In this document: in pieces, positions 53,345 to 58,080 of the stretch
How positions within the stretch are numbered: the stretch's first letter is position 1
Layout of the letters: each line of letters begins with the position of its first letter
Source: an uncultured Paraprevotella sp.
GTDB lineage: Bacteria; Bacteroidota; Bacteroidia; Bacteroidales; Bacteroidaceae
Assembly (NCBI GenBank): GCA_947177395.1
Contig: CAMWUI010000006.1
Location: forward strand, 1-64,000
Reading direction: 5' to 3'
DNA length: 64,000 nt
Notes under the pieces: generated by a model
The model's input: the letters and a program-made list of their open reading frames with translations, nothing else
The model's database searches: none
What the model was told of the DNA's origin: nothing
Program-made: the position numbers and the translations under genes

Positions 53345-54220
53345 TTACATTACGTTGAGCACCTGTTCTTTGATTTGTTCCAACTCGTCCTTCATCCTGA
53401 CCACGATGTTCTGCATCTCAGCCAGGTTGCTCTTGCTGCCCGTCGTGTTGATTTCCCTGCCCATCTCCTGTGCGATGAATCCCAGTTTCTTGCCTTGCCC
53501 TTGTCCGTTTTCCATGGTTTCACGGAAATATTTCAGGTGGTTGGCCAGTCGCTGTTTTTCTTCGTTGATGTCCAGTTTCTCGATATAATATATCATTTCC
53601 TGTTCCAGACGGTTCTTGTCGTATTCCACTTCGGGGATAGCTTTCAGTGCATCCACCAGACGCTGGCGTATCTTCTCCGTCCGCATCTTTTCGTACGGTT
53701 CTATGTTGTGCATCAAGGCTTCTATGTTGTCCAGTTTCTCACAGAACTTGTTATGAAGCGCCATGCCTTCCTGCCGGCGGAATTCGGTCAGTCTGTTTAC
53801 CGATTCCTCGATGGTCTCCTTCACTGCTTTCCATTCCTCTTCGCTCAGTTCTTCCGTTTCAGTCCGGGTCATTACGTCCGGCAACCGGAGTAGCGTGGAA
53901 AACCAGTCGGCAGGCAACGGAATGTTCATCTCCCGGCTGATGCTTTCTATCTGACGGTAATATCCGGTCAGTATGGCAGCGTTTATCGGAGTCGCGCTTT
54001 GTCCCTCTTCCTTTTCTATCCATAGATTGAAGTCCACCTTTCCCCGCTCCAGCCGGGTGGCGATCAGTGTCCGGATTTCTATTTCCTTCTCTCTGTAGAG
54101 AGGGGCGATGCGGGTAGACAGGTCAAGTGCTTTGCTGTTGAGTGACTTTATTTCCGCATGGATTTTTTTTCCTGCAAATACGGCTACGGCTTTTCCATAA
54201 CCAGTCATGGATTGTATCAT
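53345..54220 (-). CDS. yicC: YicC family protein (endoribonuclease family)
   Basis: MIQSMTGYGKA, C-terminal KKLGFIAQEMGREINTTGSKSNLAEMQNIVVRMKDELEQIKEQVLNV. Confidence 0.95.
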   Translation of the reverse strand: MIQSMTGYGKAVAVFAGKKIHAEIKSLNSKALDLSTRIAPLYREKEIEIRTLIATRLERGKVDFNLWIEKEEGQSATPINAAILTGYYRQIESISREMNIPLPADWFSTLLRLPDVMTRTETEELSEEEWKAVKETIEESVNRLTEFRRQEGMALHNKFCEKLDNIEALMHNIEPYEKMRTEKIRQRLVDALKAIPEVEYDKNRLEQEMIYYIEKLDINEEKQRLANHLKYFRETMENGQGQGKKLGFIAQEMGREINTTGSKSNLAEMQNIVVRMKDELEQIKEQVLNVM

Positions 54221-54307
54221 AGATTACAGCTATTTTTTGCAAAAGTAGCAAATTAATGGCAGAAATATAGTATTTTTGCATGAATAAAAACGAGAAGACA
54301 GGGAGGT

Positions 54308-54700
54308 ATGGAGATAGTAAGGCTGGAGGGAACGGATAAGAAACTGTATGAATGGGTGGCTCCCTTGGTGATGAATCCCGCTATATTGAGGCAAAACAAT
54401 AATTATCCTTTTAAGACTTCACACCGCCATGTCTGGTATATTGCAGTTGAAGAAGATTGCGTCATGGGATTCATGCCGTTGAAAGTGACGGTTTCGGAAC
54501 TTTGTATAGATAATTATTATATAAGCGGAGATTCGTCCCGGACGATAGCGGTGCTGCTGGACCGGATAACAGAGGAAGAGGGTAGTGGTGTCCTGACGGC
54601 ACTGGTGCACAAACGCCATGTGGAGGCTTTCAGAGAAGGAGGATTCCGAACGGTGAAGGAATGGAAGAACTACGACAAGATGAAGTATAAAGGTCTCTGA
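54308..54700 (+). CDS. GNAT-like acetyltransferase-fold protein
   Basis: 130 aa; YIAVEEDCVMGFMPLK ... LTALVHKRHVEAFREGGFRTVKEWKNYDKMKYK resembles the GNAT C-terminal pattern; 5 bp upstream of the PAPS-reductase-like gene. Confidence 0.55.
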   Translation: MEIVRLEGTDKKLYEWVAPLVMNPAILRQNNNYPFKTSHRHVWYIAVEEDCVMGFMPLKVTVSELCIDNYYISGDSSRTIAVLLDRITEEEGSGVLTALVHKRHVEAFREGGFRTVKEWKNYDKMKYKGL

Positions 54701-54705
54701 AATTC

Positions 54706-56004
54706 ATGGTGCGTCAGTTAAATGTATATGAAGCCGTCAGACGGAGACTGAAAGTCGTATTCGATTCGTTTGATTATGTTTATGTTTCTTTTTCAGGCGG
54801 TAAGGATAGCGGTGTCCTGCTGAATCTTTGTATAGAATACCTGCGTGAATATGCACCGGAACGAAAACTCGGTGTGTTTCACATGGACTACGAAGTGCAG
54901 TACGGCTATACGACCGATTATGTGGAACGGACGCTGCGGGAGAATTCGGACATACTGGAGGTGTATCACTGTTGCGTTCCTTTCAAAGTGTCCACTTGCA
55001 CGTCCATGTATCAGTCTTACTGGCGCCCCTGGAATGAAGCGGAGCGCGATATCTGGGTGAGACCGATGCCCGGACGTTGCTATACGGCTGAGGATTTCGA
55101 TTTCTATCACGAAGATCTTTGGGATTACGACTTTCAGTTTTTGTTTGCTCCCTGGCTTCGTGCGCGGAAGAAGTGCCGGCGTATCTGCTGTCTGGTGGGC
55201 ATTCGCACGCAGGAGAGTTTCAACCGTTGGCGTGTCATACACAGCAACAAGAATTACAAGCACTACCAGCAATATAAATGGACCCACCGCATGGACGGCG
55301 GGGTGTACAATGCTTACCCTATTTATGACTGGGACGTGACGGACGTATGGACGGCGAACGGGAAATTCGGTTGGGAATACAATCGTCTGTACGATCTCTA
55401 TCACCAAGCCGGAGTTCCGGTGTCCCGTCAACGGGTGGCCAGTCCTTTCATATCTCAGGCCATTCCAACTCTGAAGGTCTACCGTGCCGTTGATCCGGAT
55501 ACATGGGGGCGGATGATAGGTCGTGTCAATGGAGTGAACTTTGCGGCTATCTATGGGGATACCAAGGCTATGGGATGGAGGGATGTCAAGTGTCCGAGAG
55601 GATTTTCGTGGAAGGATTTCATGTACTTCCTCCTGAATACCCTGCCGGAGGAGACCCGCAAAGGGTATCTGGACAAGTTGGGCGTGAGCATCCGTTTCTG
55701 GCGAGAAAGAGGAGGCTGTCTGAGCGAAGAGACTATCCGGAAACTGAAGAAGGCGGGCGTGCTTTTTACCGTAGGTCCGAAGAATGCTTACCACACGGAC
55801 AAGATGCCTGTCCGGATGGAATATATAGACGATATCGACATTGCGGAGTTTCGTGAGATACCTACTTACAAACGGATGTGTATCTGTATCATGAAAAACG
55901 ATCATGTGTGCCGTTATATGGGTTTTTCATTGACAAAGAGCGAAAAGGAACGGCGTGAGCGGGTGATGGAAAAATATAAAATGCTGAAGAATGGAAAACT
56001 ATAA
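54706..56004 (+). CDS. DUF3440 / phosphoadenosine phosphosulfate reductase-family protein (IbrA-like)
   Basis: PP-loop SFSGGKDSGVLLNL; CCLVGIRTQESFNRW; YPIYDWDVTDVWTANG. Confidence 0.88.
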   Translation: MVRQLNVYEAVRRRLKVVFDSFDYVYVSFSGGKDSGVLLNLCIEYLREYAPERKLGVFHMDYEVQYGYTTDYVERTLRENSDILEVYHCCVPFKVSTCTSMYQSYWRPWNEAERDIWVRPMPGRCYTAEDFDFYHEDLWDYDFQFLFAPWLRARKKCRRICCLVGIRTQESFNRWRVIHSNKNYKHYQQYKWTHRMDGGVYNAYPIYDWDVTDVWTANGKFGWEYNRLYDLYHQAGVPVSRQRVASPFISQAIPTLKVYRAVDPDTWGRMIGRVNGVNFAAIYGDTKAMGWRDVKCPRGFSWKDFMYFLLNTLPEETRKGYLDKLGVSIRFWRERGGCLSEETIRKLKKAGVLFTVGPKNAYHTDKMPVRMEYIDDIDIAEFREIPTYKRMCICIMKNDHVCRYMGFSLTKSEKERRERVMEKYKMLKNGKL

Positions 56005-56512
56005 AAGTCCTGTATACAATGTGATAGCTGTACCGGTGGAGAAGGTGTGGGCCAATGACTATAATCCGAATGTAGTGGCTCCTCCGGAGATGAAGTTACT
56101 GGAACTGTCTATCTGGGAAGACGGATATACGATGCCCTGCGTCTGTTATTATGTGAAAGAGGAAGACCGTTATGAGATTGTGGACGGTTTCCATCGCTAC
56201 ATGGTCATGAAGACATCTCGGCGTATTTACGAACGGGAGCACGGTCTGTTGCCCGTAGCGGTGATAGACAAGGATATATCCAACCGTATGGCGTCGACCA
56301 TCCGTCACAACCGGGCGCGCGGCATACATTCGGTGGAACTGATGAGCAATATTGTGGCCGAGTTGGTAAAGGCCGGCATGACAGACAGTTGGATCATGCA
56401 GAACATCGGTATGGACAAGGATGAATTGCTTAGGTTGAAACAAGTGTCCGGGCTGGCAGCCCTGTTTGCTGACCGGGAGTTCGGGAAGTCGGAGGACTGG
56501 GTGGAAGAGTAG
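55991..56512 (+). CDS. ParB-like nuclease/CTPase-fold protein (IbrB-like)
   Basis: VPVEKVWANDYNPNVVAPPEMKLLELSIWEDGYTMPCVCY...EIVDGFHRYMVMK; overlaps the upstream gene by 14 bp. Confidence 0.85.
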   Translation: MENYKSPVYNVIAVPVEKVWANDYNPNVVAPPEMKLLELSIWEDGYTMPCVCYYVKEEDRYEIVDGFHRYMVMKTSRRIYEREHGLLPVAVIDKDISNRMASTIRHNRARGIHSVELMSNIVAELVKAGMTDSWIMQNIGMDKDELLRLKQVSGLAALFADREFGKSEDWVEE

Positions 56513-56652
56513 ATTGGGGATATTTATAGAAAAGATATTAAGAAATCATGTGGTGACATGGCCGGTACCGGCGAGGTAGAGAAGTCTTTTTCATTGCGAG
56601 TTATTATAATCCGCCGATTCTTTTTATAACTTGTATTTCGTGCAAAATAAAA

Positions 56653-56693
56653 CGGCGGAACACATATGCCTTTCGGGGTGTTGTGTTCCGCCG
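56653..56693 (-). terminator. Terminator downstream of purA
   Basis: CGGCGGAACAC / GTGTTCCGCCG stem; minus strand continues TTTTATTTT. Confidence 0.8.
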
Positions 56694-56796
56694 CTGTTAG
56701 GAAAAGGGTAATCTCAAGAAACGTTGTTTGCTTGGTACTTCACTTTTTCAAACCTTCTACACGATCTCGGTTGTTCACGCATATTGCGGGTTAAGA

Positions 56797-58080
56797 CTAT
56801 TTGCGCAGGATGGTCTGTGCGCGGTCGGGACCTACGGACACGATGGTAATCGGGGTCTCCAGCTCAGTTTCGAGGAATTGGATGTAGTCCTTGAAGGCCT
56901 GGGGAAACTGTGATTCGTCTGTGAGGGACGTAAGGTCGCACTTCCATCCTGGAAGTTCCTTGTAAACGGCCTCGCAGCCTTCAGTCTCGAAAGGAACGTG
57001 GCCCACCACTTCGCCGTCTTTCCTGTAGGCGACACAAGCCTTGACGGTATCGAACGTATCCAGTACGTCGCTCTTCATCATGACGAGCTGAGTGACTCCG
57101 TTTATCATGATGGCATATTTCAGAGCTACCAGATCCACCCAGCCGCAACGGCGGTTCCGGCCCGTTACGGCTCCGTATTCATGGCCTATTTCACGGAGTT
57201 TGTCTCCTGTTTCGTCAAACAGTTCCACCGGGAACGGACCCGAGCCGACGCGTGTGCTGTATGCTTTGAAAATACCGAACACCTCACCTATGCTGCCAGG
57301 ACCTACGCCCAATCCGGTGCATACGCCGCCACTGGTGGTGCTGGACGAACTGACGAAAGGATAAGTGCCGTGGTCGATGTCAAGCATCGTGCCCTGTGCG
57401 CCTTCCGCCAATACGCTCTTGCCCTCCTTCAGGTATCGGTTGATTTCGATTTCCGTATCCGAAAGGGTGAATCCCTTCATGTACTCTACGCCTTCCAGCC
57501 ATTTCTTTTCCTCTTCGGCGATATCGTAGTCCGTGTAGTGCATGTCCTTCAGAATCTGTTCGTGGCGGGCCTTCAGGGCTGTGTATTTTTCCTGGAAGTT
57601 GTCTTCCATGTCTCCCACGCGCAATCCCGTGCGGCTGGCCTTCTCGCTGTATGTGGGGCCGATGCCTTTGCCGGTGGTTCCCACCTTGTTTTTTCCTTTG
57701 GCCGCTTCGTAGGCCCGGTCGAGCACACGGTGGGTGGGGAGAATCAGATGGGCGCGTTTGCTGATGTGCAACCGGCTTTTCAGGTCATATCCGGCCGCTT
57801 CCAGTTCCTGTGCCTCCTGCATGAACAAGTCGGGGGCGATGACACAGCCGTTGCCGATGATGTTGATCTTGCCCTCGTCGAAGATACCCGACGGGATGGA
57901 ACGCAATACGAACTTTTTACCTTCGAAGATAATCGTGTGTCCGGCATTGGGACCTCCGGCAAAACGGGCTACCACGTCATAACGGGGGGTGAATACGTCC
58001 ACTACTTTTCCTTTGCCTTCGTCGCCAAATACAATGCCCAACAGGGCGTCTACCTTTCCTTTTTTCATGAGGATATTCAT
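56797..58080 (-). CDS. purA: Adenylosuccinate synthetase
   Basis: GIVFGDEGKGKVVDVFTPRYDVVARFAGGPNAGHTI, VGTTGKGIGPTYSEKASR; start refined to MNILMKKGK. Confidence 0.97.
   Translation of the reverse strand: MNILMKKGKVDALLGIVFGDEGKGKVVDVFTPRYDVVARFAGGPNAGHTIIFEGKKFVLRSIPSGIFDEGKINIIGNGCVIAPDLFMQEAQELEAAGYDLKSRLHISKRAHLILPTHRVLDRAYEAAKGKNKVGTTGKGIGPTYSEKASRTGLRVGDMEDNFQEKYTALKARHEQILKDMHYTDYDIAEEEKKWLEGVEYMKGFTLSDTEIEINRYLKEGKSVLAEGAQGTMLDIDHGTYPFVSSSSTTSGGVCTGLGVGPGSIGEVFGIFKAYSTRVGSGPFPVELFDETGDKLREIGHEYGAVTGRNRRCGWVDLVALKYAIMINGVTQLVMMKSDVLDTFDTVKACVAYRKDGEVVGHVPFETEGCEAVYKELPGWKCDLTSLTDESQFPQAFKDYIQFLETELETPITIVSVGPDRAQTILRK

Follow-up and report, generated by a model that had tools for sequence, protein, structure and literature searches.

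What could be the function of three tightly packed genes that lie between core genes in the genome of an uncultured Paraprevotella sp.? The genes are found in a stretch of 64,000 nucleotides (positions 1 to 64,000, forward strand, of contig CAMWUI010000006.1 in GenBank assembly GCA_947177395.1; the whole stretch is called the window here), and an initial annotation made from the sequence letters had read them as a candidate nucleotide- or nucleic-acid-modifying system, composed of a GNAT-like gene followed by a pair resembling IbrA and IbrB. All three open reading frames (ORFs) are intact and on the plus strand, with a gap of 5 base pairs (bp) between ORF1 and IbrA and an overlap of 14 bp between IbrA and IbrB, and they are flanked by the divergent yicC-gmk-nadD on the upstream side and the convergent purA on the downstream side; the coordinates, strands, spacings and core-gene flanks were re-derived and are identical to those of the initial annotation. 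Our tentative answer, which we place somewhat short of an even chance, is that this three-gene operon is an adenosine triphosphate (ATP)-dependent nucleic-acid-modifying module and represents the branch, chromosomal in Bacteroidales, of an IbrA-IbrB system that is modular and derived from phages. The three genes and their predicted products are:

54308 to 54700, plus strand: ORF1, 130 amino acids (aa), GNAT-fold protein and obligate third component (AlphaFold2, Foldseek and its place beside IbrA in retrieved loci)
54706 to 56004, plus strand: IbrA-like protein (ORF2), 432 aa, PP-loop/PAPS-reductase-like ATP-pyrophosphatase domain and DUF3440 (PF11922, E = 8.9e-90; PF01507, E = 2.1e-13)
55991 to 56512, plus strand: IbrB-like protein (ORF3), 173 aa, ParB/Srx-fold nucleoside triphosphatase-type domain and helical, helix-turn-helix (HTH)-like C-terminus (ParB-like phrog_2159, E = 7.3e-77)

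The linkage of ORF1 with IbrA is far beyond chance. A total of 142 ORF1 relatives were found among GTDB species genomes, and the neighbors were analyzed at the 80 loci retrieved, all of which are Bacteroidales-type. IbrA is directly downstream of ORF1 in 80/80 of these loci and IbrB follows IbrA in 78, the contig ending first in the remaining two; the commonest junctions are a 4-bp overlap between ORF1 and IbrA, and a 14-bp or 4-bp overlap between IbrA and IbrB. Of 247 Bacteroidales genomes sampled evenly, 19 have DUF3440; 16 of these 19, and no other genome of the sample, have ORF1. Outside the ORF1 set, two of the DUF3440 genomes (G053 and G132) bear a SNF2-like helicase at the position of ORF1 and one (G088) shows a partial match. 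The co-occurrence of the GNAT-like gene with the IbrAB pair, on which the initial annotation had made its reading depend, is thus seen across Bacteroidales, in every retrieved locus and in 16/16 ORF1 genomes. Moreover, the pairwise distances of ORF1 and of IbrA are correlated (r = 0.81, permutation P = 0.001), which suggests that the two travel as a unit. Judged from these comparisons of gene content and sequence, the three genes are inherited as one coupled unit. Neighbors beyond the trio are not conserved in the retrieved Bacteroidales loci, and the trio is absent from most same-genus genomes.

No confident family match to ORF1 was found in scans of Pfam or other profile libraries. The AlphaFold2 model of ORF1, with 74 homologs as input, has a predicted local distance difference test score (pLDDT) of 94.8 and a predicted template modeling score (pTM) of 0.89. 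When the model was compared with the PDB by Foldseek, only GNATs were among the matches listed (probability 1.00), the best being ElaA (5z6n, template modeling score 0.74), with GCN5, PCAF and RimI also among them. By its predicted structure ORF1 is a GNAT-fold protein, as the initial annotation had proposed; that reading was to fall if ORF1 had another fold or was not conserved beside the pair, and instead both the fold and the conserved adjacency were found. Canonical GNATs bind acetyl-coenzyme A (acetyl-CoA) via a loop of the form R/Q-x-x-G-x-G/A. The window ORF1 does not have this loop, nor do 66-69 of the 74 Bacteroidales members; it is present in 5-8, the ranges reflecting the strictness of the motif definition, and the corresponding region is short:

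54518 to 54541, plus strand: acetyl-CoA pyrophosphate-loop region of ORF1, residues 71-78, shortened relative to canonical GNATs in alignments

Several phage relatives of ORF1 keep the loop (RNKGIG in L214, RKKGVC in L213 and RQQG in L162), and in the phage relatives L140, L142 and L149 the loop is also lost. ORF1 and a canonical phage GNAT show homology over the full length (hhalign 98%, E = 2e-13). Residues such as N30, Y33, P34, W43, G54, F55, P57, N69, Y70 and Y71, among others, are conserved in the alignment of homologs, which shows that ORF1 is under constraint. Because the acetyl-CoA loop is missing in most members, ordinary acetyltransferase activity is unlikely and the acyltransferase role previously proposed for the first gene becomes doubtful; the loss of the loop and the conserved residues together make a binding or tailoring role, rather than ordinary acetylation, the better inference from the alignments.

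The likeness of the second and third genes to IbrA and IbrB is also borne out, in that DUF3440 lies C-terminal to the PP-loop domain and an IbrB-type gene is adjacent and co-directional. IbrA matches phrog_2302 (E = 1.6e-102), and both the intact PP-loop and the membership of the PAPS-reductase superfamily stand as proposed. Its main features are:

54793 to 54810, plus strand: PP-loop SGGKDS of IbrA, residues 30-35, read from the translation and conserved among homologs
55198 to 55227, plus strand: substrate motif GIRTQESFNR of IbrA, residues 165-174, with R167, E170, S171 and R174 conserved
55411 to 55950, plus strand: DUF3440 domain of IbrA, residues 236-415 (Pfam)

Among 99 non-redundant IbrA homologs, R14, S30, G32, K33, D34, S35, D61, E63, R167, E170, S171, R174, D208 and D213, among others, are essentially invariant. 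No cysteine is invariant in the same set, the best being C402 (91/99) and C90 (84/99), and the ECGxH motif of PAPS reductases is found in 0/98 homologs. These results argue against PAPS reduction and against DndC-type sulfur transfer. The identity of IbrA as a DndC was tried and rejected, the match to TIGR03183 being weak (24.6 bits, cut-off 290.4) and partial, and the "thiolating" or Dnd-like sulfur chemistry suggested earlier for this locus was therefore not upheld. The nearest solved folds of the IbrA N-terminal domain are CysH (6vpu, Foldseek E = 2.3e-7), the PAPS domain of FAD synthase and CysD. CysD and FAD synthase adenylate and do not reduce, so adenylation is favored as the chemistry of IbrA. 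Taken together, the alignments and the predicted model depict IbrA as a protein of the PP-loop ATP-pyrophosphatase type in which no catalytic cysteine is conserved. In most same-genus genomes a strong CysD-sized PAPS_reduct gene is present and IbrA is absent, so that sulfate assimilation in this lineage does not depend on IbrA. In the whole genome (G000), a strong CysD-sized PAPS_reduct match was seen (G000:C37, a 306-aa frame) and no CysH-sized match besides IbrA; this draft is 87.7% complete, so the absence of CysH is unproven.

When its profile is compared with solved structures, IbrB matches Noc and ParB as well as SerK, a free serine kinase, and SbnI, and its ParB_N match falls below the Pfam cut-off. 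Three conserved segments were located:

56183 to 56197, plus strand: DGFHR motif of IbrB, counterpart of the ParB P-motif, with D65, G66, H68 and R69 invariant
56303 to 56329, plus strand: RHNRARGIH motif of IbrB, counterpart of the second phosphate-binding motif, with N107, R108, A109, G111 and H113 invariant
56342 to 56455, plus strand: HTH-like helical segment of IbrB, with conserved GMxxDELLRLKQ, aligning to helical repeats in the profile search

The counterparts of both ParB/Srx phosphate-binding motifs (GxxR-type and ENxxR-type), DGFHR and HNRARG, are nearly or fully invariant. IbrB thus has, on the evidence of its sequence, a ParB/Srx core with both phosphate-binding motifs and an HTH-like tail; the core proposed by the initial annotation is confirmed by phrog_2159 and by the Noc and ParB profile matches, and the HTH-like C-terminus is plausible given the conserved helical segment. 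It is also evident that the ParB domain of IbrB resembles the ParB part of the phage "DNA methyltransferase" family phrog_498.

When viral contigs were scanned with the IbrA alignment, 80 loci were recovered, and IbrB is beside or close to IbrA in 80/80. The accessory genes around the pair are of four types: a SNF2-like helicase in 25 loci (the versions of Streptococcus phages match Pfam SNF2-rel and Helicase_C), a "WE" domain of ~125 aa in 50, an ectoine-synthase-family cupin in 22 (PF06339, E = 1.8e-44 in L170), and GNATs related to ORF1 in 11. WE is a helical domain (HPYWxWEE...AWIGHAA...PED..REAW), and the members tested matched nothing in Pfam or PHROG; it adjoins IbrA/IbrB or is fused to the IbrB C-terminus (five loci), examples being L185:1529-1930, L199:3866-4969 and ~48 other viral IbrAB loci. 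The cupin is fused to the IbrB N-terminus in nine loci (L157, L158, L163, L166, L169, L172, L177, L178 and L184) and likewise in Mycobacterium phage Nebkiss (L130:6290-7189), and in 13 more viral loci a free cupin gene is next to IbrB. Nothing that pointed to an ectoine pathway was noticed around the cupin genes. After near-identical entries were removed, helicase and WE occur together in 0 of 74 non-redundant loci, whereas 24 have only the helicase and 45 only WE (P = 7e-15, Fisher's exact test, uncorrected for relatedness). In the IbrA tree, a quick run in which the long branches L136 and L213 are not to be over-read, the helicase and WE labels each change several times, the cupin and WE combination forms one clade, and the Bacteroidales GNAT type forms one clade (support 99) nested among the helicase-type viral modules. 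Phage relatives, as compared here, thus keep IbrAB constant and swap the accessory gene (helicase, WE, cupin or GNAT). In one Bacteroidales genome (G168, locus L127), a GNAT is directly before IbrA and a weak helicase match is just upstream; this locus is possibly an intermediate.

The neighbors of viral IbrAB include helicases, DnaB, primase, RecE, exonucleases and DNA methyltransferase, and phage IbrAB pairs adjoin replication or packaging genes. In Arthrobacter phage Salgado (L135:226-6678) and Faecalibacterium phage Taranis (L134), an IbrAB-like pair lies directly upstream of the terminase genes, and in Salgado this region also has three ParB-like genes and a methyltransferase. A pattern scan for close ORF1 relatives in 2.9 million IMG/VR contigs gave none that was confirmed; the divergent phage GNATs were recovered only via the IbrA search. 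Small ORFs upstream of the helicase in Streptococcus phages were considered as counterparts of ORF1 and rejected, being similar in size and unrelated. Three faecal records named "Bacteriophage sp." and flagged UNVERIFIED (MT839645, MT835983 and MT838936; L026, L027 and L029) carry a Bacteroidales-type ORF1, which in MT839645 is beside IbrA; these are probably bacterial DNA and not true phages.

A nucleic-acid-modifying module could operate as follows. IbrB would bind a nucleoside triphosphate (NTP) in order to load on, or pick out, its nucleic acid target, which is most likely to be DNA; IbrA would adenylate, and so activate, a group on that target or on a small donor, releasing pyrophosphate, so that a sulfur-free modification could follow; and the accessory protein would tailor or recognize the modified group or, in the case of the helicase, open access to the substrate. 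In Bacteroidales the helicase would have been lost and the GNAT-fold protein would serve as a binding or tailoring subunit instead of an ordinary acetyltransferase. Three observations favor DNA over RNA: the helicase partner is SNF2-like, the phage neighborhoods are rich in DNA-metabolism genes, and IbrB is similar to the phrog_498 ParB domains. Several points weigh on the other side. The predicted model of IbrA is only moderate (pLDDT 80.6, pTM 0.64), and the wide conservation of C402 and C90 may leave redox or metal chemistry for IbrA. The Bacteroidales loci have no helicase and no constant restriction partner, and no modified base or nucleotide was found for any IbrAB system in the literature searched. 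In E. coli K-12, loss of YbdO, the repressor of ybdNM (ibrA/ibrB), raises ybdN with the cysteine regulon (PMC9068703), and a metabolic role fits too. A bolder form of this proposal, which we hold to be on the unlikely side, is that IbrA-IbrB is the enzymatic core of an unrecognized, widespread sulfur-free nucleic-acid hypermodification system, in which a ParB-fold NTPase steers a PP-loop adenylating enzyme, the SNF2-like helicase, ectoine-synthase-type cupin, WE and GNAT subunits are swappable, and the GNAT-fold subunit became fixed in a domesticated version in gut Bacteroidales.

The alternative that survives best, although we regard it as fairly unlikely, is that the pair is a regulator, with IbrB acting as a ParB/Noc/VirB-like, NTP-switched DNA-binding gene switch and IbrA making or consuming a nucleotide signal. 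Papers and phage annotations give IbrA/IbrB as coactivators of prophage gene expression, and the ParB motifs and HTH-like tail of IbrB agree with such a switch. ParB-fold proteins bind cytidine triphosphate (CTP), ATP or guanosine triphosphate (PMC12704722), and VirB, a CTP switch derived from ParB, activates genes (PMC10770331). However, a gene switch leaves unexplained both the constant pairing of an ATP-pyrophosphatase-type enzyme with IbrB and the exchange of helicase, cupin or GNAT around the pair.

A role in small-molecule or sulfur/amino-acid metabolism, in which IbrB would resemble SerK/SbnI, IbrA would adenylate or ligate the product and the GNAT or cupin would finish it, has a low probability in our view. 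It could draw on the IbrB profile matches to SerK (5x0b) and SbnI, on the ectoine-synthase-family cupin that phage modules carry next to IbrB or as an IbrB fusion, and on the E. coli ybdO deletion, in which cys genes go up together with ybdNM (PMC9068703). The similarity to SerK is, however, weak (E ~0.004) and no better than that to ParB/Noc, the Bacteroidales neighbors form no constant metabolic pathway, and most same-genus genomes have the CysD-type gene without IbrA.

Modification of tRNA or other RNA, in the manner of TilS or TmcA, is improbable. The fold matches of IbrA include the PP-loop enzymes TilS and NcsA, and there are known systems in which GNATs act on RNA. But the helicase partner is of the SNF2 type and the phage neighbors are DNA replication and recombination genes, IbrA is without the cysteines of tRNA thiolases, and the sporadic presence in ~8% of sampled Bacteroidales is unlike a core tRNA modification.

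A defense or toxin-antitoxin type module appears quite improbable. TASmania predicts the Listeria homologs lmo1309/lmo1310 as a toxin-antitoxin pair by guilt-by-association, and a few trio loci adjoin Mrr, AbiEii or mads-like genes. The 138 flanking genes of the Bacteroidales loci are nevertheless mostly metabolic or envelope genes in a raw tally, the Bacteroidales trio gave no family match to PADLOC defense models beyond weak DndC/BrxP matches to IbrA, and phages themselves carry the pair beside replication or packaging genes. The enrichment in defense islands or prophages for which the initial annotation had suggested looking is not evident for the Bacteroidales loci, and the homologous viral modules are phage-borne.

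DNA phosphorothioation or another Dnd/BrxP-type sulfur transfer is largely disfavored and has very little probability: IbrA is weakly and partially similar to DndC and BrxP and DndB is likewise of the ParB superfamily (PMC10853773), but ~99 IbrA homologs have no invariant cysteine to compare with the DndC cysteine dyad or the cysteine-rich region of BrxP, the DndC match spans only ~75 residues, and no cysteine desulfurase, DndD or DndE is among the recurrent neighbors.

As for the site itself, the region upstream of yicC holds tsaB and a DUF4290-type gene in the majority of same-genus genomes, and purA is not found within 1.5 kilobases; at positions 53345-56800 of the window, the trio and purA occupy that place. 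Because most of these genomes differ there in this way, the site of the trio appears to be rearranged instead of being a simple insertion. In the 87-bp intergenic region (window 54220-54308), two promoter pattern matches are back to back, facing yicC and ORF1 respectively, and a hairpin follows the trio:

54239 to 54247, minus strand: divergent promoter match TACTTTTGC on the yicC side, pattern TAnnTTTGY
54271 to 54279, plus strand: Bacteroidetes -7-type promoter match TATTTTTGC, ~28 bp before ORF1, pattern TANNTTTGY
56653 to 56693, no strand assigned: strong hairpin and possible terminator between IbrB and purA, minimum free energy -29.6 kcal/mol, z -4.04

TANNTTTGY has 29 matches in the window versus 17 expected by chance and is on its own weak evidence. 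The hairpin at 56653 to 56693 was not detected by a scan for T-tail terminators.

The IbrA/IbrB pair is already known, and homologs are present in E. coli K-12 (ybdNM), on many plasmids of Klebsiella and E. coli, in Listeria and in numerous phages. No description of the trio or of the modular phage family was found in the open-access literature searched or in a large 2025 survey of the ParB fold; within that literature, the obligate GNAT-fold third subunit, its lost CoA loop, the exchangeable-partner architecture and the Bacteroidales domestication are apparently new. Concrete predictions on the substrate and the composition of the complex can be drawn from the third partner, which is constant in gut Bacteroides that can be cultured, from the defined set of interchangeable partners, and from the fusions of IbrB with a cupin of the ectoine synthase family, whose chemistry is known. 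Phocaeicola vulgatus ATCC 8482 is one strain that bears the trio (locus L034). Should the pair indeed modify DNA or nucleotides, it would form a new class apart from Dnd, Dpd, BREX and Mom.

Among known systems, Dnd (DndB/DndC) and Dpd (DpdB) likewise pair a ParB/Srx-type NTPase with an enzyme of nucleobase or backbone modification, and DndC is in the PP-loop superfamily; the trio differs in having no conserved catalytic cysteines and no DndA/D/E or DpdA/C partners. Mom of phage Mu is a GNAT fold adapted to DNA modification (PMC7824862). ORF1 was tried as a Mom homolog and rejected, having no detectable sequence relation to it (hhalign probability 0.1). SerK and SbnI share the ParB/Srx fold and a related phosphate-binding region with IbrB, although the similarity is weak and IbrB is shorter, with an HTH-like tail and a PP-loop partner. 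In comparison with CysH, CysD and FAD synthase, the nearest folds of its N-terminal domain, IbrA adds DUF3440 and is without ECGxH. E. coli K-12 YbdN/YbdM are the same two proteins in the same order and with the same domain architecture (PF11922 and ParB-like) as the pair in the trio; however, the E. coli-type pairs examined have no GNAT, helicase or WE gene, whereas the Bacteroidales version is always with ORF1, and Bacteroidales IbrA shows only ~30% identity with the enterobacterial copies. The closest named phage relatives of IbrA (53-54% identity) belong to phage helicase-IbrA-IbrB modules, for example those of Streptococcus phages CHPC1062 and Bsingle, which have the same gene order and overlaps as the trio, with a SNF2-like helicase in place of ORF1.

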